A stretch of 64,000 nt of DNA from Methylocaldum szegediense (GTDB lineage: Bacteria > Pseudomonadota > Gammaproteobacteria > Methylococcales > Methylococcaceae): the NCBI RefSeq assembly GCF_949769195.1, contig NZ_OX458333.1, positions 186,001-250,000 on the forward strand, written 5' to 3'. The position numbers and the translations under genes are program-made. Below, piece after piece: positions 919 to 18,186 of this stretch (positions are counted from its first letter, which is position 1; every line of letters begins with the position of its first letter). The notes below the pieces were generated by a model. That model was not told the origin of the DNA and searched no databases. It was given only the letters and a program-made list of their open reading frames with translations.

Positions 919-1886
919 TTAGGACGGCACGTCGAAGTAATGGATGCTGAACAAGTTTCGGTCGTCCAGCCAACATCCCTGCACCTGGAATCCCGCTGTT
1001 CGGGCCAACGTTTGAAACTCGTGTACGGTGTATTTGTAGGAATTTTCCGTGTGCACCGATTCGCCCTCGGCGAAACTCAGAATTTCTCCAGCCAAGCGAA
1101 CATTTTGGGCGCAGCGACTGATGAGGTGCATCTCGATCCGGCTCTCCCCGGCGTTGTAGAAAGCGTAATGATAGAACCGGTTCGGATCGAAGTCGGCATC
1201 CAACTCCGCATTGAGGCGGTGTAACACGTTCAGGTTGAATTCCCGGGTCAGACCTTGTGCGTCGTTGTAGGCCCGGTGCAGCACCGCTGGATCTTTCTTG
1301 AGATCGACACCGATCAGCAGGCCGCCGTCCCGCCCGACGAGCCGTGCGACCATTCGAAGAAAAGCCAGCGCATCACGCGGTTCGAAGTTGCCAATAGTCG
1401 ATCCCGGAAAAAACACGACTTTTTTCGATCCGATCGATACCGGCGCTGCCTCGAAAGACTCGAAACCCGCGGTATAGTCCATGCACACGGCATGCACGTG
1501 CAACCATTGGTATGCGGTTCCTAGCGCCTCTACCGAGCGTTTGAGATGATCCTTGGAAATGTCGATCGGCATGTAGACAGCGGGACGCAGAGTTTCCAGC
1601 AGGATCTGGACTTTTTGGCTGTTGCCGCTGCCCGGTTCGATGAGAACGCAGTTCTGGCCGATGGTTTCCGCGATCGCCGCGGCGGAATCGTGGAGAATGC
1701 CGGTTTCCGTGCGGGTCGGGTAGTACTCCGGCGTTTCGCAGATCGCTTCGAACAGCTCGCTGCCGCGCTTATCGTAGAACAGTTTCGGCGGTAGTCGCTT
1801 TTTCGGGCTGCGAAGTCCTTTCAGCACCTCGTCGAGGATGTCCGTCGGCGCCGGCTCTCGGTCGGTGAATCGGATGCGTCCAGCGG

Positions 1887-1890
<4 letters not shown>
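919..1890 (-). CDS. egtD: L-histidine N-alpha-methyltransferase (EgtD), ergothioneine biosynthesis
   Basis: EgtD trimethylates the alpha-amino group of histidine with SAM to make hercynine, the first step of ergothioneine synthesis. The 323-residue product has the family start ([20 protein letters not shown], then YYPTRTE), the SAM-binding segment [18 protein letters not shown], and the [10 protein letters not shown] and [10 protein letters not shown] motifs seen across EgtD. A GTG start at 1890 is chosen because it overlaps the egtB stop as GTGA (1887-1890) and gives the usual family length; the frame stays open further upstream, but that part matches nothing in EgtD. Transcribed after egtB. 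Confidence 0.93.
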
Positions 1891-3182
<1,292 letters not shown>

Positions 3183-3417
3183 GTTTTGCCTCCCGGGTGC
3201 CAGGAGGCATTCTAAGACGTACAGCCGGTTATGGCTAATCGTAGTCTTACTACTGGAGGGTATGCGCGGCGAAGCGCGTTGGATTGACCTGAAAGCACTC
3301 CAACCTGCCTTTATACCTGGACTAAGAAATATCGGCCAGGTCAATCTGGGACAGGGACGCCCCGGCGCGGCGGCAAGCCGCGTGACCCTAGGCCAGGTAT
3401 CTTCAGGCTGGGCAGTG

Positions 3418-3449
3418 GCCCGTAAACACCGGAGAGGTATTTACGGGCC
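3418..3449. repeat. Inverted repeat between egtB and the GNAT/carrier operon
   Basis: The arms GGCCCGTAAA (3418-3427) and TTTACGGGCC (3440-3449) are perfect 10-base complements around a 12-base loop, just downstream of the GNAT stop at 3471. Position suits a transcription end for the 3471-8027 operon, but no T-run follows on either strand, so a Rho-independent terminator is not proven. The rest of 3183-3417 shows no gene and presumably holds the egtB promoter. Confidence 0.5.
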
Positions 3450-3470
3450 CGATTAGAAAGGCAGCCTGAA

Positions 3471-4616
3471 TCACAATTGTTCGCGAAATCCCGTCCACCA
3501 TTCGCCATCCGCCCGCGTTAGGAACGCTTGACCGGCATGGACGGCGGCGGCCAGCTCGCTCCGGCGAGCGTTCAACAGGGCCAGTGTGGACGCTCGATAA
3601 TAGCCGTGGCACCGGTTGCAGTAGAGCGGCTGGATAAGCCAGGGCTCCAGCCGGCCCATGACCGCGCCTGCGCCGCGACGTTCGGCGTCGGCGAAAAGGT
3701 ACTCGAGTACGTGGGTTTCGTGATTTTCGCTTGCGGCAATCTGCATCACCTCGGCAACGCGGTGAGGCGAAAGATAATAAAGGTACCAGCCTACCAGCTT
3801 GCCGCCCTCGGTGCGGATCTGCCGCCCAATCAGCGATCCGCGCGAGACGACGCGCGACATCTCGTCCAAAAGCCAAGCTAGATAGGTTTCGTCGTAATCG
3901 GGGCGAAGACGCCAGCGTGTCGAAAGTTGAGGCCAAGCCGAAGCCATCGCTTTCGGAGCGAGATCTTCCTCAATTAGACGTACTGGGGGCCGTGCCGAAC
4001 GTGGCCGCCTTTTTTTTACTAGAGCCCCTAACGCGCGGTCGAGGAGTATCGACAGCGGTTGGCAGATGGTCATGAGCTTCCGGAAACCGGGATACTTCCG
4101 GGCGATGTATTCGCTGGCAAATGTCGCGGGCCGGAGCAGGTGTATCCAGCCTAGGCAGTGCACGTGTACGGTTTGTCCACCGAGCCGCTCCCATAGGAAA
4201 CGCCCCTGCTCGTTCGCGCCATCGGTAATCGATAGGTCCTGGGGACCGTTAAGGAAGTGCCGAAGCAGAAATACTCCGGCGCCTTTGGCCCGAGCTTCCG
4301 GCAGGGTGGCGAACGGTCCGCTGCAGGCCATCCGCATCGGCCGGCCGTCGAACGTCATGCGCTGTACACTCACTCTCAGAAAGCCGGCAACTCGACCCTC
4401 GGCATCTTCGTAGACCAGCGATGGTATTTCGGGATCGTAGCCGGGCGTTTCCAGACACAAACGGCGAATGTAATCGGCGAGTCGGCCCGGTTCGGTGGGG
4501 CAATCGGTACGGAAGACCTGTTGAAGCACCGCCGCCGCAGCGTCGACGTCATCGGGCGTGAGCGGGCGAATGCCCTGGCGGCGGAGCGTTCTGACGCGTG
4601 CCAGCTCAAGCGACAT
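3471..4616 (-). CDS. GNAT-family N-acyltransferase (381 aa), last gene of the carrier-protein operon
   Basis: Predicted soluble acyltransferase. The N-terminal half (IRPLTPDDVDAAAAVLQQVF, then the SLVYEDAEGRVAGFLRVS strands and GPFATLPEARAKGAGVFLL) has the layout of a GNAT fold, with a second GNAT-like part in the C-terminal half (LVGWYLYYL, VLEYLFADAERRGAGAVMGR). Double-GNAT proteins of about 380 residues are often hypothetical acyltransferases in polysaccharide or natural-product loci. It overlaps the carrier-protein gene by 11 bases, so it may move an acyl or aminoacyl group from that carrier. Substrate unknown. Confidence 0.75.
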   Translation of the reverse strand: MSLELARVRTLRRQGIRPLTPDDVDAAAAVLQQVFRTDCPTEPGRLADYIRRLCLETPGYDPEIPSLVYEDAEGRVAGFLRVSVQRMTFDGRPMRMACSGPFATLPEARAKGAGVFLLRHFLNGPQDLSITDGANEQGRFLWERLGGQTVHVHCLGWIHLLRPATFASEYIARKYPGFRKLMTICQPLSILLDRALGALVKKRRPRSARPPVRLIEEDLAPKAMASAWPQLSTRWRLRPDYDETYLAWLLDEMSRVVSRGSLIGRQIRTEGGKLVGWYLYYLSPHRVAEVMQIAASENHETHVLEYLFADAERRGAGAVMGRLEPWLIQPLYCNRCHGYYRASTLALLNARRSELAAAVHAGQAFLTRADGEWWTGFREQL

Positions 4617-4875
4617 CGACGAGATTTCGCTGGCTTTCGATATAAGCGGCGATTCGGTTCACCGAGCGAAACTTTTCCAGGTTCAGATCCAAATCGTCGA
4701 GCGATACCGAGATACCGAACTCCCGCTCCAATTGAGCGATCAGATTGACGAGCAGCAGAGAATCGAGCAGTCCGCTATCCACGAGATCGGCATCGGGTTC
4801 GGAGATTTCGATATTGAGACGATCGAAAAGGATTCGAGTGACTGTTTGGGTCAGCGGTTGGATGCTTTGAGGCAT
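4606..4875 (-). CDS. Acyl/aminoacyl carrier protein (phosphopantetheine-binding)
   Basis: An 89-residue stand-alone carrier protein. The segment VDSGLLDSLLLVNLIAQLE carries the Ser of the DSL motif (Ser39), the expected 4'-phosphopantetheine attachment site. The length, the four-helix pattern and the acidic C-terminal half resemble DltC-type and NRPS-type free carriers more than the fatty-acid AcpP. It lies within overlapping genes (25-base overlap with the GNAT upstream, 11 with the one downstream) in the same operon as an adenylation enzyme, its likely loading partner. No phosphopantetheinyl transferase is present in the window. Confidence 0.88.
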   Translation of the reverse strand: MPQSIQPLTQTVTRILFDRLNIEISEPDADLVDSGLLDSLLLVNLIAQLEREFGISVSLDDLDLNLEKFRSVNRIAAYIESQRNLVDVA

Positions 4876-5384
4876 GCTGTACTCCGGTGTTCATGGGCCA
4901 ATAAATCGAATAACAGGCGATCCAGATATCGATCGCCCAACCGATGGCAGCAACGCCGGCGTCCGATCGGTCTGAATCCGACCTTTTCCAAAACCCGAAT
5001 GGACGCGACATTGATCTCCACGGCCCAGGCGGTAATCGCTTGCAGTCCCAAGCGGCCGAAGCCGTGGTCCAGGAGTTCGAGTACCGCCCGAGTGGTGTGG
5101 CCGCGAGCCAAATAGGTCTTGTCGCCGAGGACGTACCAGAGCGTGGCGGTCTTGAACCAAGGCGAGATGTCGCTCAACCCGACCAGACCGATGGGCCGCG
5201 CATTCTCTCGAGGAGCGAAAAGGCGCAAATAGTGGGTGTCCCGCTGGGCCATCACTTTCAGTAAGAGCGGCGTCAGGATCTGTGTGTCGCCGCCGAAATC
5301 GAGCCAACGGTAGTTTTCCTCGGCGGCGAGCCATTCGGCGGCGGTTGTCAGCCAATCGTCGTCAAGTTTCCGCAGAAGTGTCAT
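4851..5384 (-). CDS. GNAT-family N-acetyltransferase (177 aa)
   Basis: A typical single-domain GNAT protein of the RimJ/SpeG-like group. It has an acceptor region (YRWLDFGGDTQILTP), the strand IGLVGLSDISPWFKTATLWY, the acetyl-CoA-binding loop region YLARGHTTRAVLELLDHGF and the terminal NVASIRVLEKVGFRPIGR motif. The ATG at 5384 gives family length and overlaps the adenylation gene by 23 bases; longer in-frame extensions upstream read as antisense-type low-complexity sequence. Gene order suggests it acts on the activated or carrier-bound intermediate, but the substrate is unknown. Confidence 0.85.
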   Translation of the reverse strand: MTLLRKLDDDWLTTAAEWLAAEENYRWLDFGGDTQILTPLLLKVMAQRDTHYLRLFAPRENARPIGLVGLSDISPWFKTATLWYVLGDKTYLARGHTTRAVLELLDHGFGRLGLQAITAWAVEINVASIRVLEKVGFRPIGRRRCCHRLGDRYLDRLLFDLLAHEHRSTACLKASNR

Positions 5385-6966
5385 GCCGAAACAGATTCCG
5401 CAAGAGAGGTCGGTCGATCTTTCCGTTGGCGTTCTTCGGGAGTCGCTCCATCGCCAGCCAACGCGTCGGCAAGGCGTAGCTGGGTAGCAGCCGGGATGCC
5501 TGTCGCCGCAAGTAGGGCGGTGACACGCTCTGACCCTGGCGCGGCACATAGGCGCAGCAGATGGTGTTGCCCTCGAAGCCGTCGGTGGGCAAGGCCACCA
5601 CGGCGCATTCTTCGAGGCATTCGAGCGAATGGAAGGCCGCTTCGACTTCTCCGAGATCGATACGGTAGCCGCGGCTCTTGATCTGGGTGTCGGCGCGTCC
5701 GACGAAGTAAATGAGGCCGTCCTCGCCACGTCTCGCGAGATCGCCGGTCTTGTAAATGCGATCTTTGGGGTTGGATGCGCCAGGATAGGGTAGAAAGGCC
5801 GCCGCTGTTTTCTCAGGATCTTTCCAGTAGCCGGGACTCAGGCCCGCCCCGCGGATATATAGATCGCCGATCTCGCCGGGTGGGACTTCGTTCAGATGGG
5901 CGTCCAGGACCAGCAGCTCTTCGCCGGCGCAGGCGGTGCCGATCGGAATGGGGGTCAAAGCGTCCCGTGGACATTCGGGCACGGTGTAGTAACTGCTCGC
6001 GATCGTTGCCTCGGTCGGTCCGTAAAGATTGGTGAAACGGACATGGGGCAGTCGCTGCATGAAATGGATCAGGGTAGGCGTAGGCAAGACCTCGCCGCAC
6101 CAGAGCATCCGCTTGAGCGTAGGGAAGTCGTTCTGCATCACGACGTCGTGCTTGGCCATGAAGTTCAATACCGAAGGCACCGAGAACCACTGGGTCAATC
6201 CATTCGAGCGAATGAACTCGGCGAGCCCGTGCGGTAACAAGTTGAGCTGCGGCGGGACCATGTGCAGTTCGGCGCCCGCGGAGAGCGTGCCGTAAACGTC
6301 GAACGTAGAGAGATCGAAATGCAGGGCTGTATGCCCCGAGATCCGGTCGCCGGGTTCGAGCCTGAAATAGTTCCGTGCCCATTCTACGAAGGCGATCACG
6401 TTACGGTGAGTGATGGGCACTCCCTTGGGGACGCCGGTAGACCCGGAGGTGAACAGAATGTGGGCGATATCGTCCGCGGTGTTTTCGTACTCAGGCGGAT
6501 CCGAGGGATAGGTATCTACCTCACTCATATCGAAACAACTGGCGAATAGCCGACCCTCCAGTCGGCATCGCTCGATCGAGCCGATCTTCAAGGAGTGCTC
6601 GCCGATCTCCTTCAGGATGTCATCCAGAAGCATGACCGTGTCGGCCGAGACCAGCGCACCCCAAGGCTCGGAGATCCGGATCATTGGGGCCAGGCGTGCG
6701 GGAGGACTGGCCAGGTCGACCGGGATGTAGGCCGCATCCGCCTTGATCACCCCGAGCATGGCGACTATGGCTGCGGGCGACTTGGGTATTAACAGGCAGA
6801 TGCGGTCGCCGCGGCGGCAGCCGGCTTCGCGCAATCGCCAAGCCAATTGCGAACTGGTTGTTTCAAGCTCTCCATAGGTTAGGGAGGAACGCCCAAGAGT
6901 CACGGCGACGGCGTTAGGGCGCAGTTCGGCCTGTCGCGACGCGTAATCTTGCAGCAGCTTAGGCAC
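5362..6966 (-). CDS. Stand-alone amino-acid adenylation enzyme (NRPS A-domain / DltA-like)
   Basis: This 534-residue AMP-forming ligase probably activates an amino acid and loads it on the nearby carrier protein. Core motifs are present in order: LTYGELE (A1), LFTSGSTGVPKGV (A3), HFDLSTFDVYG (A4), NLYGPTEAT (A5), YKTGDLARR (A7), KSRGYRIDLGEVE (A8) and PKNANGKIDR with the catalytic Lys (A10). The Asp after Phe in A4 corresponds to the residue that binds the substrate alpha-amino group in GrsA-type domains, favouring an amino acid over a fatty acid. My hand reading of the specificity pocket (roughly D-L-F-S-L-C-L-I-A) matches no code I recognise. There is no fused condensation or carrier domain. 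Confidence 0.9.
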   Translation of the reverse strand: MPKLLQDYASRQAELRPNAVAVTLGRSSLTYGELETTSSQLAWRLREAGCRRGDRICLLIPKSPAAIVAMLGVIKADAAYIPVDLASPPARLAPMIRISEPWGALVSADTVMLLDDILKEIGEHSLKIGSIERCRLEGRLFASCFDMSEVDTYPSDPPEYENTADDIAHILFTSGSTGVPKGVPITHRNVIAFVEWARNYFRLEPGDRISGHTALHFDLSTFDVYGTLSAGAELHMVPPQLNLLPHGLAEFIRSNGLTQWFSVPSVLNFMAKHDVVMQNDFPTLKRMLWCGEVLPTPTLIHFMQRLPHVRFTNLYGPTEATIASSYYTVPECPRDALTPIPIGTACAGEELLVLDAHLNEVPPGEIGDLYIRGAGLSPGYWKDPEKTAAAFLPYPGASNPKDRIYKTGDLARRGEDGLIYFVGRADTQIKSRGYRIDLGEVEAAFHSLECLEECAVVALPTDGFEGNTICCAYVPRQGQSVSPPYLRRQASRLLPSYALPTRWLAMERLPKNANGKIDRPLLRNLFRHDTSAET

Positions 6967-6971
6967 AGCGC

Positions 6972-8027
6972 TTACCCTGCCAAAGCTTCCCGAAAAACGA
7001 CTGCGGTATGCTCCAGTTCCTCCTCACTGGGGGGAATATCGAGGATGAACGTGCGATAGCCGAGTCCGATATAGCCGGCGATTTCCCGGGCCACGCGTTC
7101 GTAGCTTCCTACTAGGTAAGGGCAAAACGTTCGGTAATTGTGAAAAGGCCCGAGCCAATAAGGATGATCGTAGTCCACGGCGGGGCTATGCGACGAAAGT
7201 TGTTTGTGCCATTCTGAATCGGACACTTTCATGGCCAGTTGGTGGGCCAGTTGTCCTTCGCGGGTTTCGGGAAAACGCTCGAGGGCAACCCGCCAGGCCT
7301 CCTCGGCCGAGTGGCGCGCCACGATGCCCACGCGAACGCCGCAGGGTACCCCCGCGCCTTTTTCTACGCCGCGCTCTTCATTCGGAGGCAAGGGATACTT
7401 GATCGCAGTGGCGTCTATGGCCCGAGCCGCCGCCATGCCAGCGTCCGAGGAGCCCGATATCAGGATGCCCGGCTGCAGCGAAGGCGGCAGCTGCGGAGAC
7501 ATCTTGAGATTGTGGATATGGTAAAACTTTCCTTCGAAGCTCACGCCCGACGGACTTTTCAGCAATTTCCGGATGATGAGCGTGTACTCGGTCGTACGGG
7601 CATAGCGTTCGTCATGAGGCGTATCGTCGCCTAAAGCCACCAAGTCATTGCGAAAGCCGCCGGCCAGCATGTTCAAATAGATGCGTCGCCCATAGAGAAA
7701 GCCCAGCGTCGCAACTTTCTTTGCAGCCGTGTAAGGGTGCATGTAAATCGGCTGGACGGCGACCAGAGGAGAAAGCGTGGCGGTGTGTTCCAGGATCAAT
7801 TGGCTCACCAGCCACGGGTCGGCCAGAGAATTGTCGGTGTACACCAGAATACCGCGACATCCGATGCGCTCGCTCCAGCGCGCTACCTCCACGACGCGCT
7901 GCCGGTAGGTCTTCGGATCACCGGCGGTGGATTGAGGACAGGTCGAAAAAACATCTATCGCATCGAGACCGATGCGAGTTTTTCCATAGAAATCAGCAGG
8001 TGCGCTGGTACTTTGAAGCTGCGACAT
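6972..8027 (-). CDS. Luciferase-like (LLM class) flavin-dependent monooxygenase
   Basis: A 351-residue TIM-barrel-type LLM oxidoreductase resembling the SsuD/alkanesulfonate monooxygenase branch. Visible features are VEVARWSERIGCRGILVYTD near the N-terminus, the central PYTAAKKVATLGFLYGRRIYL/NMLAGGFRND region, and PGILISGSSDAGMAAAR further on. Enzymes of this class use reduced FMN and O2. It is the first gene of a five-gene operon and lies 5 bases from the adenylation gene, so it probably oxidises the pathway intermediate (N- or C-oxygenation; type unknown). No flavin reductase gene is adjacent. Confidence 0.87.
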   Translation of the reverse strand: MSQLQSTSAPADFYGKTRIGLDAIDVFSTCPQSTAGDPKTYRQRVVEVARWSERIGCRGILVYTDNSLADPWLVSQLILEHTATLSPLVAVQPIYMHPYTAAKKVATLGFLYGRRIYLNMLAGGFRNDLVALGDDTPHDERYARTTEYTLIIRKLLKSPSGVSFEGKFYHIHNLKMSPQLPPSLQPGILISGSSDAGMAAARAIDATAIKYPLPPNEERGVEKGAGVPCGVRVGIVARHSAEEAWRVALERFPETREGQLAHQLAMKVSDSEWHKQLSSHSPAVDYDHPYWLGPFHNYRTFCPYLVGSYERVAREIAGYIGLGYRTFILDIPPSEEELEHTAVVFREALAG

Positions 8028-8248
8028 AAGGCCTTCCTTGGACTTGTCGTTTCGGATCGTTGGTTAAAGTCCGCCCGGTACGCACGGGGCGGCTATAGTT
8101 GTTATCGGCCGGGCAATCAGATCGACCGAATTACGCGCTTTCTCGATTCGGTATCCATGAATCTCGGAAAGAGCATTCGAATCGTTGCCCAAGCGGCATA
8201 TTCATATAAACGCCTGACGGTCCGATTCGCCCATTCGTACGTTTACCT

Positions 8249-8607
8249 ATGTTCCGGGACATGACCGAAAACCGGGATGGCGGGCACGCGTTCGACACCC
8301 TGTATGTCTCGCGGAGAATCGACACCCTCCACATTACGGTAAGCGGACCCGGCGACACCCGTGCGTACCGGTTTGTTTGGGACGGGCTGATCCAGGAGTC
8401 GTTTCCGATGGGCATCCGCCTGGTACTGACTGTCGACGATATCCGCGGTCGGACCGTTCCGGACAGCGTACTCGTCATCCCGCTGAACGTCCGTAAAATC
8501 ATCGGCACCGCGAACGCAGGGACCCCGACGATGCGGGGAATTACCGGTTTCAGGTCATCAACGGCTCAAAACACCAAACGGTCACCATGCCCCCAACGGG
8601 ATGGTAA
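8249..8607 (+). pseudogene. Possible frameshifted hypothetical gene between the two cluster halves
   Basis: From 8249 one frame gives a protein-like sequence (FDTLYVSRRIDTLHITVSG, then RAYRFVWDGLIQESFP) up to about 8520. The next frame continues plausibly (DDAGNYRFQVINGSKHQTVT) to a TAA at 8605. Together they look like one small protein broken by a shift near 8520-8527. I do not recognise the family, and no good ribosome site is seen. The stretch 8028-8248 holds no gene I can support and presumably contains the promoter of the minus-strand operon. Confidence 0.3.
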
Positions 8608-8631
8608 CCTCGATATCCAAGTAAATCACGT

Positions 8632-9240
8632 ATGCGAACGATCACGGTTATTTCATCGGTCACCTTGGATGGGATCATACAAGGCATGGGCGCACCGCAG
8701 GAGGATCACAGCGGCGGCTTCCGCTTCGGCGGCTGGACCAGGCCATACGGCGACGCGGTCAGTGCGGCCTTGGTCAGGGAAAAATTGGACCAGTCCTCCG
8801 ACTACTTGTTGGGCCGCCATACCTTCGAGATCTGGGAACCTTATTGGCCGCATCATGCGGACTACTGGCCCAACATCAATACCGGCCAAAAATATGTGCT
8901 GTCAAATACGCGCCGGCAATCCGATTGGGCGAACACTACGTTCATCCGTACCGTGGATGACATCCGCAGCCTGAAAGCATCGGATGGGCCGACGCTACAG
9001 GTCTGGGGCAGCGGCAAACTGGTGCAGTTGCTGCTGCGGCACGACCTGGTGGACGAATTGCACCTCCAGGTTTTCCCGCTACTGCTGGGTCAGGGCAAAA
9101 AGTTGTTCGATGATCAGTCCTCGCCCACGGCGTTCGAATTGATCGACAGCCAGGTAACCACGACGGGCGTTATCGCCAGCCACTACCGGCGGATCGGTAA
9201 TGTGGAGGCGAACCCTGAACCGGCCGGTAAGCGCCGGTAG
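8632..9240 (+). CDS. Dihydrofolate reductase / RibD C-terminal family oxidoreductase
   Basis: A 202-residue member of the DHFR-like RibD C-terminal family (YyaP/YwjB group). It starts MRTITVISSVTLDGIIQGMG, has SSDYLLGRHTFEIWEPYWP, then the nucleotide-binding LQVWGSGKLVQLLLRHDLVDELHL and VFPLLLGQGKKLF. Members bind NADPH; most have no assigned substrate. It is on the plus strand between the two minus-strand cluster halves and next to a dead permease fragment, so it may be a passenger gene rather than part of the pathway. Confidence 0.85.
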   Translation: MRTITVISSVTLDGIIQGMGAPQEDHSGGFRFGGWTRPYGDAVSAALVREKLDQSSDYLLGRHTFEIWEPYWPHHADYWPNINTGQKYVLSNTRRQSDWANTTFIRTVDDIRSLKASDGPTLQVWGSGKLVQLLLRHDLVDELHLQVFPLLLGQGKKLFDDQSSPTAFELIDSQVTTTGVIASHYRRIGNVEANPEPAGKRR

Positions 9241-9251
9241 CGCCCGCGTGG

Positions 9252-9628
9252 TTAGGCCTGTGCAGCGTGTTGGCGCAGCTTCCACGCCAGCGCCGCATAA
9301 CTCAGCAGGCTGAACACTGCGGTCAAGACTCCCGACAGCAGGATCGGTCTGACGCTATCGGACGACGTACCGCTCTGCATCAGTAGGGTCCGATAGCCGC
9401 TCAGGAAATGCGCCGGCGGAAGGATGTCTGCTGCCCGGGAACGGCCTCGGGCATCTGGCTCAACGGCCGGGTATGGCCGCTCAGCACCAAGCATGGCGTC
9501 GCCACGACCGTCAGGATTTCGGTGGCCTTCAACTGGTTGGGCACCAGAATGCCGGCGAGTATGCCCAGGAACGATGCCGAAGCCACGAACAGCCCTGCAG
9601 CCCCCAATTGCCACGGCGTCCCCCGCTG
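9252..9628 (-). pseudogene. Remnant of an ABC-2 type (YhhJ/YhgE-like) transporter permease
   Basis: Two frames together read as the C-terminal part of an ABC-2 permease: FVASASFLGILAGILVPNQL, then ATEILTVVATPCLVLSGHT and PLSQMPEAV in one frame. The next frame continues with ADILPPAHFLSGYRTLLMQS and SVRPILLSGVLTAVFSLLSYAALAWKLR. The shift is near 9430. Everything upstream of about the last 120 residues is missing, cut off at the neighbouring gene's stop (9632), so this is a dead fragment. Confidence 0.8.
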
Positions 9629-9631
9629 ACG

Positions 9632-11746
9632 TCAATCGCTAGGCGACGGTTCGGTTTTGCGCACCGTGCGAGACATCGGATTCACGGTTTTCAATCGATC
9701 CGCGAGATAACGCTGCATGAATCGCCCAGCCAGCGGCAGAAGGGCGGCGCCAAAAGATGCGTGGCCCAAACGAATTCTACGCCACGCGTTTTGCACGGCC
9801 GTCACGTCGCCTTGTTGTCTTATCCGATCTAGGTAAAGCAGGATCGCGTCCCGCGCGCGGGCGGAGTGGCCACATGCGAGATTGTCGATGGTTTGGTGGA
9901 GTTGAACGATCGTGGGGTCGATGCCGTGATGGCCAAGAATATCCGCGGCCTCCATGTAGCCGGCGCCGAGGCCGCTAAGCTCGATGGCCAGATTAAGACC
10001 CAAGAGCTCCGGGAAATAGCGATCCTTTAGCAGCCCGATAGCGAGCATGTAAACCGGGAATTCAAAGGCAGCGTCAATAAACCTCGCATCGCGGGCGAAA
10101 TCCTCGGTTTCGAACTCAGGGGTCGTCAAGCTCAAGCTTTGGAGCAGTCGCCGATAGACGTTGGCGTGATTCCGTTCGGGGTTGCCGTTTCCCACTTCGT
10201 CAGCATAGATCTGTAGTAAATGCCGTTCCACCTCCCCGAGGTTCTCGGAAGCCGTCGGAACAGCGGCCAGCCAGCACCCGTCCACCAGGATGGAAGGTGC
10301 GAGTTGTAGAGCCGCCCAGACGCAAAAATCCCGACCGACTCGGGGATTGCCGTTTGAAGGGCGATAACGCCCCGCTTCCCGGCAGTAAAGGCCCTCTACC
10401 CACTGGGTAAAGGCTATCGGATCGTAATGGCGTAAGGTACGCGGAGGCGGTTTCAACCGTTCCAACCAGCGGCTGCGCCTAAGAATGCGTTCCACGGCTA
10501 TCGTGGCCTCTGGCGGGCAATCTTCGGCGGACTCCGCATTGAGTAGGGCGGTGAAAAGCTTGCGATAGTCGACGGTAGTCCGAGAGATATTTTTTTCCGA
10601 GCGACCGTTCGAGTTAGGCCGGTGTAAATTGGCGACGCGATCGCTGACGGGTGGGTGGACCGCTCCATTCGCGCGGAGCGATTCGACCTCGGCGCTAGGG
10701 TTTTCGATCCAGCCGAGACACACCTGCCTTTCTTCCGCGGTGAACACGCCGAACATCGGGCCGCCGAAGTCCATGGCGCGGATCAGCCGGCTGGCCGCCG
10801 GACACCGGAGGTCTGTGTAGGGCGAGTTTCTTAGCGCTTCGAGCAGGGGAACGGGATCGTCCTCGGCTTGCGCGAGCCACCGGTCGAGGCTTTGCCCTTG
10901 CAGCATGACCCGGTGATGGTAGCCCACGGCGTACGGGCGCTTGGTCCTAATGATATCGGCCATGATCTCGGTGGCCGTCGGGTGCCGGGCCCGGACGGCT
11001 GCGACACCGGCTAGAAGCGATTCAAGCGAGTGGCGGTAGAGAAGCCATCCGGCGCCGATCCGTTCAGGATCGCACCGTTCCCTGAGACAGGACGCCAGCG
11101 CGGCCGAGGCCATCGGGCGTACGTCTTTCGCAAATCGCTCCCGTGCAGACATCCAAGCCGTTGCATCCTCTCTCGCCAGCGAAGCCCACCAGGCCGGATC
11201 CAAGAAGCAATGAGCGAGGGTATAGCCCAGCAGTTCGGGAAAAAAGGTACGGGGCCTGTGCATCAGGCCGAGCTGGAGGCAGGGCATGTGCAGGGCGAAA
11301 TTGGGAATACGGCGGTCGTTGAAAAAAGTTGGGCTGTAAAGAGGCGGGAGACTTATGCCCGAACAGGTCAGCAAATTCCGAAAATGCAGGGGCAAGGCCG
11401 GTGAATCGTCCTCCAGGCCGACAATCCGGCAGTAAATCGCGAACAAATGGCCGTGCGCGGACAAATGTCCCGTGGCCGGTTGGGAGACGCGCGCCAGCCA
11501 CACACCTTCAAGCAGCAGGGCGGGACTGAGCGCGAGGAGCAGGGTTCGCCGCTCGCCCCGATCGGCAAGGTCGGGTGTTCCTACCGGCTGCCAAGCCTCG
11601 AGCCGGACTTCAGGAGGGCCTCGTTGTTTCCGAGCCTCGCCGAGGGCCGCTTTCACGAAATCCTCGGCGGCTTGCAAGGTCTCTCGACCAGGAGAACCGT
11701 TCAGCAGCACCTGGCAAAGAGAACGAATGTCGGACGGCGTGCTCAT
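9632..11746 (-). CDS. Tandem heme-oxygenase-like (iron-containing redox enzyme) protein, 704 aa
   Basis: Two related halves. The C-terminal half (from about residue 390) has the pattern of the iron-containing redox enzyme family (heme-oxygenase-like diiron oxidases such as UndA, BesC, SznF): an E..H helix (EVERHLLQIYADEVGNG), YFPELLGLNLAIELSG with a Glu, and a late helix with H, D and H (QLHQTIDNLACGHSARARD). The N-terminal half repeats the scheme (SAHGHLFAIYCRIVGLEDDS; FFPELLGYTLAHCF) but lacks the corresponding Glu residues, so it may be catalytically dead. It overlaps the carbamoyltransferase stop as TAATG at 11744-11748. The reaction is unknown; N-oxygenation or oxidative C-C cleavage are known chemistries of the family. 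Confidence 0.65.
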   Translation of the reverse strand: MSTPSDIRSLCQVLLNGSPGRETLQAAEDFVKAALGEARKQRGPPEVRLEAWQPVGTPDLADRGERRTLLLALSPALLLEGVWLARVSQPATGHLSAHGHLFAIYCRIVGLEDDSPALPLHFRNLLTCSGISLPPLYSPTFFNDRRIPNFALHMPCLQLGLMHRPRTFFPELLGYTLAHCFLDPAWWASLAREDATAWMSARERFAKDVRPMASAALASCLRERCDPERIGAGWLLYRHSLESLLAGVAAVRARHPTATEIMADIIRTKRPYAVGYHHRVMLQGQSLDRWLAQAEDDPVPLLEALRNSPYTDLRCPAASRLIRAMDFGGPMFGVFTAEERQVCLGWIENPSAEVESLRANGAVHPPVSDRVANLHRPNSNGRSEKNISRTTVDYRKLFTALLNAESAEDCPPEATIAVERILRRSRWLERLKPPPRTLRHYDPIAFTQWVEGLYCREAGRYRPSNGNPRVGRDFCVWAALQLAPSILVDGCWLAAVPTASENLGEVERHLLQIYADEVGNGNPERNHANVYRRLLQSLSLTTPEFETEDFARDARFIDAAFEFPVYMLAIGLLKDRYFPELLGLNLAIELSGLGAGYMEAADILGHHGIDPTIVQLHQTIDNLACGHSARARDAILLYLDRIRQQGDVTAVQNAWRRIRLGHASFGAALLPLAGRFMQRYLADRLKTVNPMSRTVRKTEPSPSD

Positions 11747-13506
11747 TATTGGATGCCGGGTTTGGTAAATAAATGATCGCCGATGACCAGGGCGTCGAGA
11801 CCGGAGGTGAGGAACACGCTGGCGGCGTCTTCCACGCTATGCACGATGGGCTTGCCCATGACGTTGAAGCTGGTGTTGAGCAGCACCGGGACGCCCGACC
11901 GCCGGTGAAATTCGGACAGCAAGGCATGAAAACGCGGGTTCCAATCCTCTTTGAGTGTCTGCAAGCGTCCGGTACCGTCGACATGGACCACGGCGGGCAC
12001 TCGGTCGCGCACGGCTGGCTTGAAGCGCAGGGTACGGTCCATGTAGGGACTCTCCTGGTAGTTCGCGAAGAAATCCAGACCGTACTCGTGCAGAATGACC
12101 GGAGCGTAGGGTCGGAAACGTTCGCGGAATTTCACCTCGCGGTTGATGCGCTCGCCCATATCCTTCGGCCGGGGATCGGCCAGGATGGAACGGTTGCCCA
12201 ACGCACGTGGGCCGAATTCGGCGCGGCCTTGAATCCAGCCCAGGATTCTTCCCCGGGCGAGAAGATCGGCGGCAGCGGAGATCACGGCTTCGCCCGGCAA
12301 GTGTCGAACCGGCAGTTGTGCGTATCGGGCCAAGCGTTCGACCGCCTCAGGCTTGATGCGACTTCCAAGATAGGGCGAAAGGCAGCGGGGTTCTATCCTG
12401 CGTTCCGGATGGTCTTCGTGAAAGGCGAGTAGCGCCGCGCCGAGAGCGGTACCATCATCGGCGGGTGCCGGCGGTACATAAAGCGACCGGAACGGCGTAT
12501 GGGTCAACAGTTGCCCGTTGCAGACTGAATTCAACGCGCACCCGCCGGCGAAAGCCAGATGATCGGATGGGACGGCCTCATGGAGATTGGCGATCAGCTG
12601 GTTGACGGTTTCGGTGAAAAAATGCTGCCCGGTATGGGCGAGGTCGGCGGCGGTCTCGGGTGCATCATCCTTCGATCGCTTACGGGTCATTAGACGGTCG
12701 AGATATTCGAAAAATCGATCATAATCCGGAACCACTCGCAAGCCTTCGACCCGCATCGAGCTGCGCAGCCAGCTCAAAATTTCCTCGTCGATCCGCCCGT
12801 AAGAAGCGAGCCCCATGACTTTCCATTCCTCTCCGCCAATCCAGTCAAAGCCGCAGAGTTCGGTGAGCTTCATATAGTAAAATCCGAGGCTCAGCGGGCC
12901 ATGCGCTTCGAAGAGCGGTTTCAGGGCCCCGTTGCGGTAGGTGAAGAACGCCATCGAGCCCTCCTCGCCGTAGGAATCAATGACCGCGCAGACGGCCTCG
13001 TCGAACGGGCTGCCATAACAGGCCAGCGCGGCATGGGTCAGGTGATGGTCGTAATGTCGGAAGCGGACGGACGCCCCAGGGAAATCATGTCCCAGTGTCC
13101 GCGCCAGGTTGATTCCGATCCGCCTCATAGCATGGTGCTGGCACGCCAACATATGATGGATCTGATACATTTCTAACCAGGTGGTTAGTCGACGGCCTTT
13201 GCCGCGCAAGATGCCCCGGGGTGACAGCCAACCGAGGCGCTTCGCAAGCCGCTCGTAGATCGGCCGGGATTTGCGCCAGTTGCAAGCGATAACGAACTCA
13301 TCGGCATCAGCGCAGTACTCGCGCAATAGCTTCGGAATAAGGTATAGGTTGTCCGGCTCGCAGTTCAGGGCGCGCTTGTATTGAAGAGGACGCTCGGTTG
13401 CCTCGGCGAACAGGATCTCGCCCTTATCGTTCAGGATGGACAGCGCCGGGTCGTGATAGGTTACACAGAGGCCGACATAATACGTTCGGGAGTCGTGTTT
13501 CTTCAT
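11746..13506 (-). CDS. O-carbamoyltransferase, NodU/CmcH/TobZ family
   Basis: These enzymes transfer a carbamoyl group from carbamoyl phosphate via carbamoyl-AMP to a hydroxyl of a natural product. The 586-residue protein has the Kae1-like N-terminal domain (YYVGLCVTYHDPALSIL at the start; metal-binding HYDHHLTHAALA; GCALNSVCNGQL). The C-terminal domain carries ILGWIQGRAEFGPRALGNRS, ILADPR, KFRERFRPYAPVI, VPVLLNTSFNVMGKPIV and a terminal DALVIG. All are hallmarks of TobZ/CmcH. The start at 13506 is only 18 bases from the divergent AlkB-like gene. It is coupled to the downstream tandem diiron-like gene. Predicts a carbamate in the product. Confidence 0.92.
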   Translation of the reverse strand: MKKHDSRTYYVGLCVTYHDPALSILNDKGEILFAEATERPLQYKRALNCEPDNLYLIPKLLREYCADADEFVIACNWRKSRPIYERLAKRLGWLSPRGILRGKGRRLTTWLEMYQIHHMLACQHHAMRRIGINLARTLGHDFPGASVRFRHYDHHLTHAALACYGSPFDEAVCAVIDSYGEEGSMAFFTYRNGALKPLFEAHGPLSLGFYYMKLTELCGFDWIGGEEWKVMGLASYGRIDEEILSWLRSSMRVEGLRVVPDYDRFFEYLDRLMTRKRSKDDAPETAADLAHTGQHFFTETVNQLIANLHEAVPSDHLAFAGGCALNSVCNGQLLTHTPFRSLYVPPAPADDGTALGAALLAFHEDHPERRIEPRCLSPYLGSRIKPEAVERLARYAQLPVRHLPGEAVISAAADLLARGRILGWIQGRAEFGPRALGNRSILADPRPKDMGERINREVKFRERFRPYAPVILHEYGLDFFANYQESPYMDRTLRFKPAVRDRVPAVVHVDGTGRLQTLKEDWNPRFHALLSEFHRRSGVPVLLNTSFNVMGKPIVHSVEDAASVFLTSGLDALVIGDHLFTKPGIQ

Positions 13507-13524
13507 CGTCGATTCCGAAAGCCT

Positions 13525-14652
13525 ATGGACATTCTAACGACAACCGGGTCTGAAGGGATTTCGAGGGCGGTTCGTTTGCGGGAATTCTTGCCACCTTGGT
13601 GGTGTGGTTTCGGCATCAGTCTGGTCATGCCGAGCTGCGTGCTGGGCTTTTTCGCCTTTGGTCCTCATCAGGTGCTGCCGGCACTTGCCTGGACGCTACC
13701 GTTCGCCGCTCTATTCTTAGTCGATTGTTTCGGTCCTTCCGAAAGGCGGTTGGTCCCGGCAGACGCGCCCCCCTGGTTTTTCGACGGAATCCTTTACGTT
13801 CTCGTTTCGTTGCAGGCATTGAACGTTTTCGCTCTGGGCCTTTGCGTCTCGCGGCTTAAGTGGGCCGGTCCAGTAGAGGTTATGGATAGTCTCGGCAACC
13901 TCCTGGCGGTGCGAATCATGGTCGGAACCAATTTTTGCTGTGCGGCCATTTGTCCCGCGCACGAGTTCATCCACAGACATCGCCGTTGGCAGAGGATGCT
14001 GGGTCGGTTTCTACTCGTTACCGTATTTTTCGATCATTTCGCGATCGCACACAAGACGGCCCACCATGCCCGGCTAGGGAGTACCCTGGATCCATCCACA
14101 GCTGCCGCGGGTGAGAGCTATGAAGACTTTTTTCGGCGGACGGCGATTCACCAGTGGCGGATCGCTTGGGGTGTGGACCGAAAGGCTACCGCCACGGGAG
14201 TTGCGGTCGAAGCGCTATGGCTTGTTGTATACACATGGCTGTTCGGCCTCTTAGCGGCGGTGGTGTATCTACGATGCGCCTACCTCGCGGTACGCATCCT
14301 GGAGGCCGTCAACTACTTTCAACATTACGGGTTGACCGAAGGCTCCGGCCTGTCTCGCCTGACCGCCTGGCGCAACGATTCGGTCATCAGCCTATTTCTT
14401 TTTCTGGGTCTCACGCGCCATGCCGATCACCATCGCCGCCCTGGAGTGCCTTATCCTCGGCTGCGGGCATTGGACGAAGGTCCGGCCATGCCGTGCGGTT
14501 ATTGGGGAATGGCCGTGATGGTGCTGAGGCGTAATGAGAAATACCGATCTTGGATGGAGTCGCAAATCAATGCGGCTGTTCGGAGCGAGGATCGGCCCGC
14601 GATCGTTCAGTCTGCCAATACGCCGGCAAACGATCGAGCCCGCGGATGGTGA
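13525..14652 (+). CDS. AlkB-type membrane diiron oxygenase (fatty acid desaturase superfamily)
   Basis: A 375-residue integral membrane protein with several hydrophobic segments and the histidine clusters of the alkane monooxygenase/desaturase superfamily: HEFIHRH, AHKTAHH, NYFQHYGL and LTRHADHH. These correspond to AlkB motifs HELxHK, EHxxGHH, NYxEHYGL and LQRHSDHH, with Gln replacing the usual Glu of the NYxEHYGL box. Likely hydroxylates or desaturates an acyl chain or the product. The ATG at 13525 is chosen because it precedes the first hydrophobic block; the upstream frame is antisense to the carbamoyltransferase. Its last 86 bases overlap the 3' end of the convergent P450 gene. Confidence 0.85.
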   Translation: MDILTTTGSEGISRAVRLREFLPPWWCGFGISLVMPSCVLGFFAFGPHQVLPALAWTLPFAALFLVDCFGPSERRLVPADAPPWFFDGILYVLVSLQALNVFALGLCVSRLKWAGPVEVMDSLGNLLAVRIMVGTNFCCAAICPAHEFIHRHRRWQRMLGRFLLVTVFFDHFAIAHKTAHHARLGSTLDPSTAAAGESYEDFFRRTAIHQWRIAWGVDRKATATGVAVEALWLVVYTWLFGLLAAVVYLRCAYLAVRILEAVNYFQHYGLTEGSGLSRLTAWRNDSVISLFLFLGLTRHADHHRRPGVPYPRLRALDEGPAMPCGYWGMAVMVLRRNEKYRSWMESQINAAVRSEDRPAIVQSANTPANDRARGW

Positions 14653-15814
14653 TAGTGGGTTTCCACGGTGGGTCGTCGACACCCTCGAGCTGTAGCTCGG
14701 GCAGCCTGCGCAATAAACCGGCCAACGCCGTTTCGAGCTCGATGCGCGCAAGGCGGGCGCCCAGGCAATAGTGCATGCCGCCTCCGAACGACAGCGGCTT
14801 TTGCGTTTGCTCCGGGCGTTCGATCAGGAATCGCTCGGGCTGTTCGAACACAGCTGGATCGCGATTGGCCGCCGCCAGGTTGATGTAGACCGTTTCGCCT
14901 CGTTTGATCGTTACCGTGCCGATGGTGACATCCTGCATGGCGACGCGCGCAGCGATATGGACCGAGGTTTCGTAACGGAGGCACTCGTTTACCGCTCGCG
15001 GCAGCAGCGAAAGATTGGTTCGGAGCAATGCCAATTGTTCGGGATGTCGGAACAGAGTCAAGAGTGCATTGCCGATCATGTTGGCGGTAGTTTCGTGCCC
15101 GGCGAGGAACAGGAGGGCCACGTTGGCGACAATTTCATCCCGGCTCAGCCGGTCTTCGCCTTCCTCGGCTTGAAGTAAAAGAGAAATCAGGTCATGGCCG
15201 GGATTCTTGCGGCGTTCGTCGCAAATATTCCGGAAATGGCGCTCGAACGCTTGCGCGGCCCGGTTGGCAGCATCGATGTCGGACGGTCCAATGGGACTCA
15301 GTTCGAACACCTTGACAAGAGCCTGGGCATCTTCGAGATAGGGAAGACCGTCTTCAGGCGGGATATCGAGAAGCGCGCAGATGATCCGGACGGGCAGCGG
15401 ATAGGCGAACATCCTTACCAGGTCTGCGCAGCCATGGTCGATGAATTCGTCGATCAGCCGGTCGGTTTCGCGCTGGGCCAGACGGCGCAGTTCGGGAGCC
15501 TGTTTTACACTGAAAGCCTTGCCGACGAGCGCACGCAGGCGAGTGTGCTCGGGTGGATTCATGAGTAGCATGAAGCGATTCACCATCTGAAAGGCGGGTT
15601 CCTTAACTGCGCCCGCTCCGTAGCGGCGGGCGACCCCGGCCAGAAAGTCCTTGCCGAAGCGAGGATCACGGAGGATGCGGTCGGCATCCTCGTAACGGGT
15701 TGTGAGCCAAGCGCCGGGCATGAGCCGATGGAGCGGCGCCGCATTGCGCAGTTCTGCGTAAAACGGATAAGGGGTTCTCAAAAATGCTGGTGAATTGAGA
15801 TCGATACTGAGCAC
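14567..15814 (-). CDS. Cytochrome P450 (bacterial soluble class, 415 aa)
   Basis: Soluble bacterial P450, no membrane anchor. It has the I-helix AGHETTANMIG, the K-helix E-C-L-R within VNECLRYET, and the heme-binding loop FGGGMHYCLGARLAR with the axial Cys at residue 350. N-terminal YPFYAELRNAAPLHRL and NPPEHTRLRALVGKAF are typical of the CYP107/CYP102-like actinobacterial and proteobacterial types. It probably hydroxylates the product of the adjacent biosynthetic genes. No ferredoxin gene is adjacent. Its 3' end overlaps the convergent AlkB-like gene. Confidence 0.93.
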   Translation of the reverse strand: MLSIDLNSPAFLRTPYPFYAELRNAAPLHRLMPGAWLTTRYEDADRILRDPRFGKDFLAGVARRYGAGAVKEPAFQMVNRFMLLMNPPEHTRLRALVGKAFSVKQAPELRRLAQRETDRLIDEFIDHGCADLVRMFAYPLPVRIICALLDIPPEDGLPYLEDAQALVKVFELSPIGPSDIDAANRAAQAFERHFRNICDERRKNPGHDLISLLLQAEEGEDRLSRDEIVANVALLFLAGHETTANMIGNALLTLFRHPEQLALLRTNLSLLPRAVNECLRYETSVHIAARVAMQDVTIGTVTIKRGETVYINLAAANRDPAVFEQPERFLIERPEQTQKPLSFGGGMHYCLGARLARIELETALAGLLRRLPELQLEGVDDPPWKPTITIRGLDRLPAYWQTERSRADPRSEQPH

Positions 15815-16107: not shown

Positions 16108-18186
16108 TTAGAATCGATATTCCACGCCGCCGTAGAAGGCTCGTCCGTCGCCGGGATAGAACTGGGACGCGGGACTACTGAGTACGGAGGCATTCGCGAT
16201 AACGCCGGTGGTTGCAGCATAGGTTTCGTCAGTCAGGTTCCTAGCTTCGAAGTAGGCGGAAAACCCTTGTTTGGTCCGATAGCCGGCGCGAAAGCCCATG
16301 AGCGCATAGGCGTCGGCGGACAGTGTGTTGGCCAGGTCGACCGGGATACGGGTCGCAGACCATTCGACATTGGGGCCGGCATAAAAGCCCGATGGATGCT
16401 CATAGAGCAGTTCCGCTCTCAAATAGTGTTCCGGAATGCCAGGTAGTCGATTGTTGCCGTAAGTCGGATCGTTGTCGAACCGGAAATCGTTCCACATGTA
16501 TGACTGACGCAGAACGATATTATCGATCGGGCGAATTTCGAGACCGAGTTCGATGCCTTGGTGTATGGTCGTGGAGTCGGCGTTTCGGGTGATCGTGGCC
16601 GTTCCGGTCGGATCCGTCGGATCACGCAGTTGCAGCAATTCATTCTCGATCCAAGCGTGATAGTAGGACAGATCCCAGTTGATCCAGCCTTCCCTGCCAC
16701 GCGTGCCGACTTCCACCGTGCTGCCCCGCTGCGCGGTCAGTTGGAGAGGAACGTTGGTGCTCGTAAGAGTAAGTTCGCCGAATGACGGCGGCTCGAAGCT
16801 GCGGCTGAAGTTCACATACGCTTGGCTATTGGCGGTAAATTCCCAGCGTGCGCCGATTTTCGGGCTGACCCCGAAGAAATCCTGATGGTCGCTTTGATCG
16901 CCATTGCTCAGGAAGCGATCGGTATATTCACGCTTAGCGTAGGACAGTTGAAGGCCAGTGACCACGGCCAATTGGTGCAAGAAATAGTGTTGGTTTTCGC
17001 CGTAGAAATCGATGTTGATGGCGTCTTGCGTGCTCTTGGCCGTTCTCGCGCCGCGGTGGCCGCCAACGTTGGCGAAACGGTCGTCATGGGTTCGGCCGCC
17101 GGTCGGATATAGACCCAGGATGAAAATATTCTTGTGACCGAACAACTCGTGTTCGTTGGTGTAACGGATGTTTACGCCGAAATCATCGGAAACCTGGTCG
17201 AGGACCTGAAAAATGGGGTGGAAAAGATCCTTGTACGACCAGAAGCTGCTGATGTCGATGCGCTGCTTGTCGTCCCAGCGCCAGGTGGTGGTATTACCGA
17301 GCCGCAACAGCCGAAAATCGCGTTTTTGCTGGCCTCTCAGGCTGCCGGGATTGGCCTGGGTCGGATCTTCTTCCAACTGCGCCTTGGTCAAGCTTCCCGG
17401 CAGATTGGATTGGGTATTGACATACGTTACGTAGAACCGGGTTTCCAGGTTTTCGCTGAAGCGATAACCGAAATTGGCGAAAATCCGCTCGTTCTCCTGT
17501 TCGCTCCACTGGCGAAAACCGTTGGTGGAAAAGAAGGTTCCAGAGATGTAGTAATCGGCATTGCCGAGCACTTGCCCGGAGCTCACTTGAGCGCGATAGG
17601 TATCGAAACTACCGGACTCGAAGCGTAGCTGGAGCGGGGAAGCGGTATATCCGGTCCGGCTCACGAAATTGATCGCTCCGCCCAGGGTGGTCGAGCCGTA
17701 CATGAGCGCGTTGGCGCCACGATAGACTTCCACGTATTCTGCGGACAGAGGTTCGACCGCTTGCATGTCGAACCCGCCGTCGGCGAGATTCAAAGGAACG
17801 CCGTCCTGAAGGAGCTTGATGCCGCGGCCGTGAAACGTGCGTTGAAGGCCCGAACCGCGGATCGAGATGCGCGACTCTTCGGCGCCGAATCTCGGCTGTA
17901 CGTACACGCCCGGAGAGTAGTCGAGAACATCCTTGAGATTGGCGGCGCGGCCTTTTTCATAACTTTCCGCGTCGATGATATCGACGCCGCCCGGAACTCG
18001 GTTGATCTGCTCACGTGCGGTTTCGATATTGGGTACCGTCAAGGCCTGTGGCATGACGGCTTCACCGGTTACGGTCAGAGTCGGCAATTCGATGGGCTTG
18101 GTGTCATGATCGGCCCATGTTTTTCCCCCAAAAGTCGTTCCGCTGCACAAGAGTGCGATTGCTGTTTTTAAGCAATGCTTGTTCAT
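16108..18186 (-). CDS. TonB-dependent outer-membrane receptor (FecA-like)
   Basis: A 692-residue outer-membrane gated porin. It has an N-terminal signal peptide (LKTAIALLCSGTTFGGKTWA), a TonB-box-like segment (ELPTLTVTGEA), and a plug domain (LKDVLDYSPGVYV; SRISIRGSGLQRTFHGRG; VEVYRGANALMYGSTTLGGA). A long barrel follows, with NLTDETYA and a terminal aromatic residue (GVEYRF). The plug resembles ferric-siderophore/citrate receptors, but the ligand cannot be told. It lies next to the P450 of the biosynthetic region on the same strand with its own terminator between, so a link to uptake of the cluster's product is possible but unproven. I see no clear Fur box or cobalamin riboswitch upstream. 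Confidence 0.93.
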   Translation of the reverse strand: MNKHCLKTAIALLCSGTTFGGKTWADHDTKPIELPTLTVTGEAVMPQALTVPNIETAREQINRVPGGVDIIDAESYEKGRAANLKDVLDYSPGVYVQPRFGAEESRISIRGSGLQRTFHGRGIKLLQDGVPLNLADGGFDMQAVEPLSAEYVEVYRGANALMYGSTTLGGAINFVSRTGYTASPLQLRFESGSFDTYRAQVSSGQVLGNADYYISGTFFSTNGFRQWSEQENERIFANFGYRFSENLETRFYVTYVNTQSNLPGSLTKAQLEEDPTQANPGSLRGQQKRDFRLLRLGNTTTWRWDDKQRIDISSFWSYKDLFHPIFQVLDQVSDDFGVNIRYTNEHELFGHKNIFILGLYPTGGRTHDDRFANVGGHRGARTAKSTQDAINIDFYGENQHYFLHQLAVVTGLQLSYAKREYTDRFLSNGDQSDHQDFFGVSPKIGARWEFTANSQAYVNFSRSFEPPSFGELTLTSTNVPLQLTAQRGSTVEVGTRGREGWINWDLSYYHAWIENELLQLRDPTDPTGTATITRNADSTTIHQGIELGLEIRPIDNIVLRQSYMWNDFRFDNDPTYGNNRLPGIPEHYLRAELLYEHPSGFYAGPNVEWSATRIPVDLANTLSADAYALMGFRAGYRTKQGFSAYFEARNLTDETYAATTGVIANASVLSSPASQFYPGDGRAFYGGVEYRF

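Follow-up and report, generated by a model that had tools for sequence, protein, structure and literature searches.

A carbamoyltransferase, a tandem diiron oxidase and an AlkB-type hydroxylase encoded together across Methylococcales, with a neighbouring aminoacyl-carrier block in Methylocaldum

Between positions 3471 and 15814 of the 64,000-nt stretch of Methylocaldum szegediense DNA analysed here (the window; contig NZ_OX458333.1 of a 4.9 Mb genome; all gene coordinates are positions within the window) lies a run of biosynthetic genes. Does this run serve one pathway, or have two sets of genes come to lie side by side? The original prediction, made from the DNA alone, had taken it for a single 12-kb cluster, to be looked for as a conserved block in other genomes, with no described pathway known to match it. 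Every gene that it named is present as an open frame at its predicted position, and the family matches bear out a group of biosynthetic genes for activation, carrier tethering, oxidation and carbamoyl transfer; a described pathway with this set is not among the literature matches listed. However, the conserved unit consists only of the genes for an O-carbamoyltransferase (CT), a tandem heme-oxygenase-like diiron oxidase (HDO) and an AlkB-type membrane diiron hydroxylase (DES). This triad is the older layer of the locus. The genes for an LLM flavin monooxygenase, a stand-alone adenylation (A) domain, two GNAT acetyltransferases and a carrier protein (ACP), arranged LLM-A-GNAT2-ACP-GNAT1, form the younger layer, and in this strain an insertion of ~1.4 kb splits the two halves. 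The earlier interpretation is partly supported.

Distribution of the triad

In M. szegediense, HDO (9632..11746, minus strand, 704 aa, PF14518) and CT (11746..13506, minus strand, NodU/TobZ/GdmN/NovN family, PF02543 + PF16861) overlap at the sequence TAATG, and DES (13525..14652, plus strand, AlkB profile match; the start at 13525 was chosen by us) is divergent from CT. When 301 Methylococcales genomes were searched (cut-offs of E <= 1e-10 for HDO, E <= 1e-100 for CT and E <= 1e-35 for DES), HDO was matched in 100, CT in 98 and DES in 97. The pairs HDO+CT, HDO+DES and CT+DES occur in 93, 94 and 91 genomes, respectively, with co-occurrence P values of ~1e-60 (calculated with the relatedness of the genomes ignored), and all three genes are found in 89 of the 106 genomes having any one of them, which points to a shared product.

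HDO and CT share one contig in 87/93 genomes and lie on different contigs in 6/93. In G103 a contig break falls inside CT, with the other piece of CT in L065; in G118, G138, G160 and G240, HDO and DES are together and CT is elsewhere (in G160 there is no CT in the 5.7 kb before HDO); and in G067, CT and DES are together on contig C37 and HDO is on C39, with no CT in the 20 kb examined around it (L058). Neighbourhoods, some of them on short contigs, were examined for 40 of the 100 HDO genomes (37 from other genera and three from Methylocaldum). CT is near HDO in 39/40 of these and DES is within the stretch in 38/40, including L074, where it is >4 kb away; the misses are L058, which is without CT and DES, and L065, a contig end without DES. 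The order of the genes is variable, with DES either divergent from CT or behind HDO, and consequently the triad neighbourhood is not a frozen stretch. Within genus g24 all three genes are present in G157 and G220 and none in G028, and within genus g26 all three are present in G113 and G174 and none in G020; this distribution suggests that the three genes are gained or lost together.

A scan of named genomes, which overlaps with the Methylococcales set and includes several loci on cut contigs, found 97 HDO loci; of 80 of these, 57 have CT and DES, 8 CT only, 6 DES only and 9 neither. Four metagenome-assembled genomes titled Methylomonas sp. are among the 80, and Methylococcus capsulatus Texas has the triad (L084). 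Judging from sequence comparison, the genes for CT, HDO and the AlkB-type enzyme keep company through Methylococcales as a conserved unit. The locus is built from known enzyme families; the surprising part is this persistence through the order. The triad was also considered as a marker of methanotrophy and rejected as such, the pmoA family PF02461 being present in 236/301 genomes versus 100 for HDO; since genomes such as G008 and G028 have PF02461 and none of HDO, CT and DES, methane oxidation does not require the triad.

Several further features of the triad loci were seen. The divergent start codons of CT and DES are 18 bp apart in M. szegediense (13506-13525) and 5 bp apart in five Methylococcus-type loci (L066, L067, L071-L073; starts picked mechanically); at either distance, promoters would fall inside coding sequence. 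Ten of the 80 scanned loci (L096, L097, L104, L111, L115, L117, L118, L127, L130 and L133) share a related gene upstream of CT, and the one that was scanned, 5 bp before CT in L127, encodes a radical SAM protein with DUF4070. A metagenome-assembled genome titled Methyloversatilis universalis (L085) bears a Methylocaldum-like locus and is probably mislabelled. On contigs labelled Planctomycetota (L116), Thermoanaerobaculia (L150), Nitrosomonas marina (L158, contig cut) and Nocardia (L161), HDO relatives occur with neither a CT nor a DES match. In L155, L156 and L159 tandem HDO relatives are near a different carbamoyltransferase (31-33%); by eye, L155 and L156 also have sulfotransferase-like genes, and L156 and L159 have SGNH-like genes.

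The enzymes of the triad

HDO had been described in the original prediction as a tandem diiron-like protein. The tandem arrangement stands: hhalign matches one half to the other (probability 99.9, E 4e-31), and HDO is an internal duplication. As to iron, residues D489, E517, H527, E580, E589, H617, D621 and H627 are invariant in 25/25 sequences and all lie in the second half, and of this ligand set the first half keeps only E171 (24/25), at the place of E580. Because the first half is without the ligand set, one diiron site is predicted, not two, and the catalytic half comprises residues ~388-690.

In the predicted structure (predicted local distance difference test, pLDDT, 85.3; predicted template modelling score 0.80), residues ~381-704 most resemble RohS, SznF and HrmI (VIA-align Z of 22.4, 21.9 and 21.5, respectively), followed by 3bjd (17.1), FlcD (16.7), CADD (15.2), HamA (9vwb, 14.1) and BesC/UndA (~14). 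The alignment of residues 391-704 with 9pfx (Z 22.4, root-mean-square deviation 3.4, 265 residues aligned) confirms the heme-oxygenase-like helical fold on the model. The best sequence matches of HDO are also RohS, SznF and HrmI, all below significance (E 0.015 to 0.7). In the alignments with RohS and SznF the motif DE-x-G-x-G-x5-H is shared, and HDO residues E517, H527 and D489 align to SznF E215, H225 and E189, respectively (hand-counted, within a match that is not significant). The diiron ligand set of SznF, which includes an extra Glu, is E189, E215, H225, E281, H311, D315 and H318; HDO E580/E589, H617, D621 and H627 are invariant, yet unaligned to SznF by sequence. We take N-oxygenation to be the most likely chemistry of HDO. 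Identity with the guanitoxin enzyme GntB was considered and rejected (23 bits versus a cut-off of 380).

The assignments of CT and DES come from matches to solved enzymes. CT has both Carbam_trans_N (PF02543, E 2.4e-31) and Carbam_trans_C (PF16861, E 7.1e-68), and its profile matches solved O-carbamoyltransferases (9s2t at E 9.3e-120, and also GdmN and TobZ). The DES profile matches the AlkB structures 8f6t (E 1.5e-54) and 8sbb (E 4.7e-45), and nine DES histidines aligned to AlkB are invariant in 27/27 sequences; these correspond to the nine-histidine diiron site of AlkB. No NCBIfam model reached its cut-off for DES, and no PADLOC match indicative of a defence-system role was found for five proteins of the locus.

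AlkB-type enzymes act in the membrane on hydrophobic chains. This property, together with the wide occurrence of the triad in the order, is consistent with modification of a membrane lipid such as an amino-bacteriohopanepolyol (amino-BHP), in place of synthesis of a secreted natural product; the lipid would undergo chain hydroxylation, N-oxidation of its amine and O-carbamoylation of a hydroxyl. PMC5100885 states that amino-BHPs are made by type I methanotrophs; also reported are methylcarbamate (MC) BHPs in M. methanica and the absence of MC-pentol from M. capsulatus. The presence of the triad in M. capsulatus Texas (the strain may differ from the one reported) means that the strain data weigh, though only in part, against the special case of a methylcarbamate-hopanoid product. 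Overall, we regard modification of a membrane lipid by the triad as improbable.

The Methylocaldum block

The younger layer is encoded on the minus strand by LLM (6972..8027, SsuD-like, PF00296 E 5.3e-32), an amino-acid A domain (5362..6966, 534 aa, TIGR01733 at 375 bits against a cut-off of 317), GNAT2 (4851..5384, 177 aa, PF13302 E 5.7e-15; the start at 5384 was chosen by us), the stand-alone ACP (4606..4875, 89 aa, motif DSL, PF00550 E 1.2e-12) and GNAT1 (3471..4616, 381 aa), which has two GNAT-like regions (PF13527 + PF00583). The gene ends of A and GNAT2, of GNAT2 and ACP, and of ACP and GNAT1 overlap, as do those of CT and HDO. On the same strand, 3' of GNAT1, there is a stable hairpin (3405..3470, RNA fold -32.1 kcal/mol, z -5.5 versus 200 shuffles), a possible transcript end, although no T-run was seen at it. 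Given the overlaps and this hairpin, two tight minus-strand operon pieces are likely. They are separated by the insertion (8253..9634, an alignment gap relative to G052, G061 and G077), which is particular to this strain and missing in the three other genomes of the genus; it contains a RibD_C-domain gene (8632-9240, PF01872 E 3.6e-19) and an open reading frame without a family match (9252-9635) that looks, by eye, like what is left of an ABC-2 permease.

The block lies behind HDO in 4/4 Methylocaldum genomes, with LLM copies of 84-90% in the three relatives; GNAT1, for which only genomes of the genus were searched, is also present in 4/4 (72-82% in the relatives). There is no LLM orthologue in the other 297/301 genomes of the order (next best match E 1.6e-34, 32%), and no LLM, ACP or GNAT match at E <= 1e-6 in the 37 other-genus neighbourhoods, some of which are short contigs. 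Thus the expectation that other genomes would keep the two halves together holds within Methylocaldum and fails in the neighbourhoods outside it. An AMP ligase of 27-28% is present on the other strand in three Methylococcus-type loci (L042, L066 and L067). The best PDB matches of the A domain are A domains of nonribosomal peptide synthetases (NRPS); a substrate code derived from it by eye matched nothing nameable and was not used. The predicted structure of GNAT1 is of low confidence (pLDDT 36, from an alignment of four sequences).

Outside the order, LLM was matched at E <= 1e-45 in eight genomes of a 398-genome sample of the phylum, M. szegediense itself included. A domains are close to LLM in 7/7 of the other relatives (five belong to one genus), with no HDO or CT match near any of the seven. 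In the three plasmids examined of seven matched, LLM is accompanied by AMP ligases or NRPS, a carrier and a P450, and no HDO or CT is annotated. Since LLM relatives are regularly found near A domains and carriers, LLM, the A domain and the carrier probably make up a single module. The closest LLM relatives outside the order are in other A-domain clusters, without an HDO or CT match or annotation.

With its N-oxygenase-like HDO next to genes for an A domain and a carrier, the locus would also fit a diazeniumdiolate-type signal or metallophore of the fragin, valdiazen or leudiazen kind. However, the A domain, the carrier and HDO each have a gene of their own here, the ten locus proteins scanned contain no thioester reductase (nor a condensation or release domain), the block is absent from 37/40 neighbourhoods, and HamA is a weaker fold match to HDO (Z 14.1). 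Such a product is very improbable.

At the other end of the locus, a cytochrome P450 gene (14567..15814, minus strand, 415 aa, PF00067 E 1.4e-38) is convergent with DES. It is beside DES in the three other Methylocaldum genomes, and two genus g5 genomes have a match of 62-64% at a distance of 1.7 kb from DES. Beyond it lies a gene for a TonB-dependent receptor (16108-18186, minus strand), which is also present in G052 and G077, and beyond the GNAT1 hairpin lie the ergothioneine genes EgtD and EgtB (919-3344, minus strand; 402 and 601 bits, respectively). In G077 (L062) the EgtD matches are in broken pieces.

One product or two, and known systems

We infer the following scheme from the gene content, conservation and residues observed and from the modelled folds. 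At the core would be an O2-dependent tailoring cassette of three enzymes, belonging to gammaproteobacterial methanotrophs. Within it, the C-terminal half of HDO would bind two irons and oxygenate a substrate nitrogen (of an amine or guanidine), its first half being structural or substrate-binding; the AlkB-type DES would hydroxylate an alkyl carbon; and CT would cap a hydroxyl, on C or N, with carbamoyl from carbamoyl phosphate. In Methylocaldum, the A domain would load an amino acid onto the stand-alone carrier, LLM (and perhaps also the P450) would oxidise the carrier-bound amino acid, and the two GNATs would transfer an aminoacyl or acyl group to give a genus-specific derivative of the core product. 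That the triad N-oxygenates, C-hydroxylates and O-carbamoylates one nitrogen compound, to which the Methylocaldum block adds an aminoacyl-derived part, we hold to be the most likely reading, though about evenly poised between right and wrong.

A number of observations weigh against this scheme. The co-occurrence counts are phylogenetically non-independent and each query was given its own cut-off; one or two of the three triad genes are missing in 17/106 genomes; G280 and G290 (genus g26) carry only a CT-like match, of 45-50%; and HDO relatives in L116, L135, L140, L147, L150 and L161 are without CT or DES in the locus. Foldseek with the whole of HDO gave no match under E 0.001 (its first rows are the N-oxygenases RohS, SznF and HrmI), the spacing H617-x3-D621-x5-H627 is unlike the H-x3-D-x2-H of SznF, and D489 stands in place of the first Glu. 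An AlkB-type enzyme suggests a hydrophobic substrate and is a poor fit to a small amino acid, and no exporter, ligase or condensation enzyme belonging to the triad was found. Finally, the region around both layers is itself collinear among the Methylocaldum genomes, over 39-58 kb in G052 and G077 (far beyond both ends of the locus) and over ~31 kb in G061 (from ~-15 kb up to the P450 gene), so that unrelated neighbours are also kept: an ABC gene in all three relatives, and the ergothioneine pair in two of them, G052 and G061, EgtB being mostly lost in G077. Because the surrounding region is collinear too, adjacency is the sole basis of the link between block and triad, and this link is weaker than the LLM-A-carrier module.

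The strongest rival draws on the same synteny. It holds that two unrelated pathways are neighbours, an order-wide triad and a genus-specific aminoacyl-carrier block that landed behind it. In its favour, the triad genes are without the block in 35/37 other-genus neighbourhoods (the remaining two being L058 and the cut contig L065), and elsewhere relatives of LLM and A occur with no HDO or CT match. Yet both layers are O2-dependent tailoring sets and lie on the same strand, and in the three relatives, which are without the insertion, a gap of only 224-260 bp separates LLM from the HDO frame. We consider this rival a serious possibility that falls somewhat short of even. Returning to the scheme of one joint product, the A domain and the likeness of HDO to N-oxygenases agree with the amino-acid-derived compound originally predicted, but the AlkB-type enzyme leaves room for a lipid-like substrate. 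A bolder version, which we regard as doubtful, is that the triad, with a new tandem, Asp-for-Glu subclass of HDO, makes an N-oxidised, O-carbamoylated metabolite dedicated to gammaproteobacterial methanotrophs and common to them (a metal chelator, signal or lipid of the lineage), to which Methylocaldum attaches a carrier-bound amino acid as decoration. The triad is carried by organisms that curb the escape of methane. Its HDO would bring a new architecture to an enzyme family that is growing fast, and the three genes offer a well-defined target for knock-out and metabolomics in culturable strains.

Among the literature matches listed, none describes a CT, HDO and AlkB set in methanotrophs. (The 'heme oxygenase' and ornithine carbamoyltransferase that appear as figure labels in PMC11072679, on Methylomonas LW13, are not shown there to be this locus in the portion available, and were set aside.) The clusters on the Tritonibacter and Rhizobium plasmids (L186 and L187) share with the block an LLM, at 48-49%, as well as separate AMP ligases, a carrier and a nearby P450, but no HDO, CT or AlkB-type gene is annotated in the stretches examined. 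They also have a phosphopantetheinyl transferase and look like another pathway. As in NRPS systems, an amino-acid A domain and a carrier are present in M. szegediense, but a condensation or release domain was not found among the ten proteins. The ham, mgo and pvf diazeniumdiolate pathways have a multidomain NRPS with a reductase beside the HDO, unlike the separate 534-aa A domain and 89-aa carrier seen here, with no reductase in the ten proteins scanned. The JamABC-type alkyne pathway uses a fatty-acyl ligase, a desaturase and a carrier, whereas the ligase of this locus is an amino-acid-type A domain above the TIGR01733 cut-off.

Each enzyme of the triad has close counterparts, and in each case the partners differ. 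The C-terminal half of HDO is like SznF, HrmI and RohS in fold (Z 21.5-22.4) and like RohS and SznF in its motif, but HDO is a 704-aa tandem whose first copy is without the ligand set, it has Asp489 where SznF has Glu189 in the alignment, and it is accompanied by a carbamoyltransferase and an AlkB-type enzyme. CT has both Pfam domains of NovN, GdmN, TobZ and NodU, with profile positions ~150-583 aligning to solved members, and differs from them by its regular partnership with HDO and an AlkB-type hydroxylase. Similarly, DES has the nine histidines of AlkB alkane 1-monooxygenase, with profile positions 110-326 and 10-325 aligning to the two structures, but unlike that enzyme it is tied to CT and HDO.

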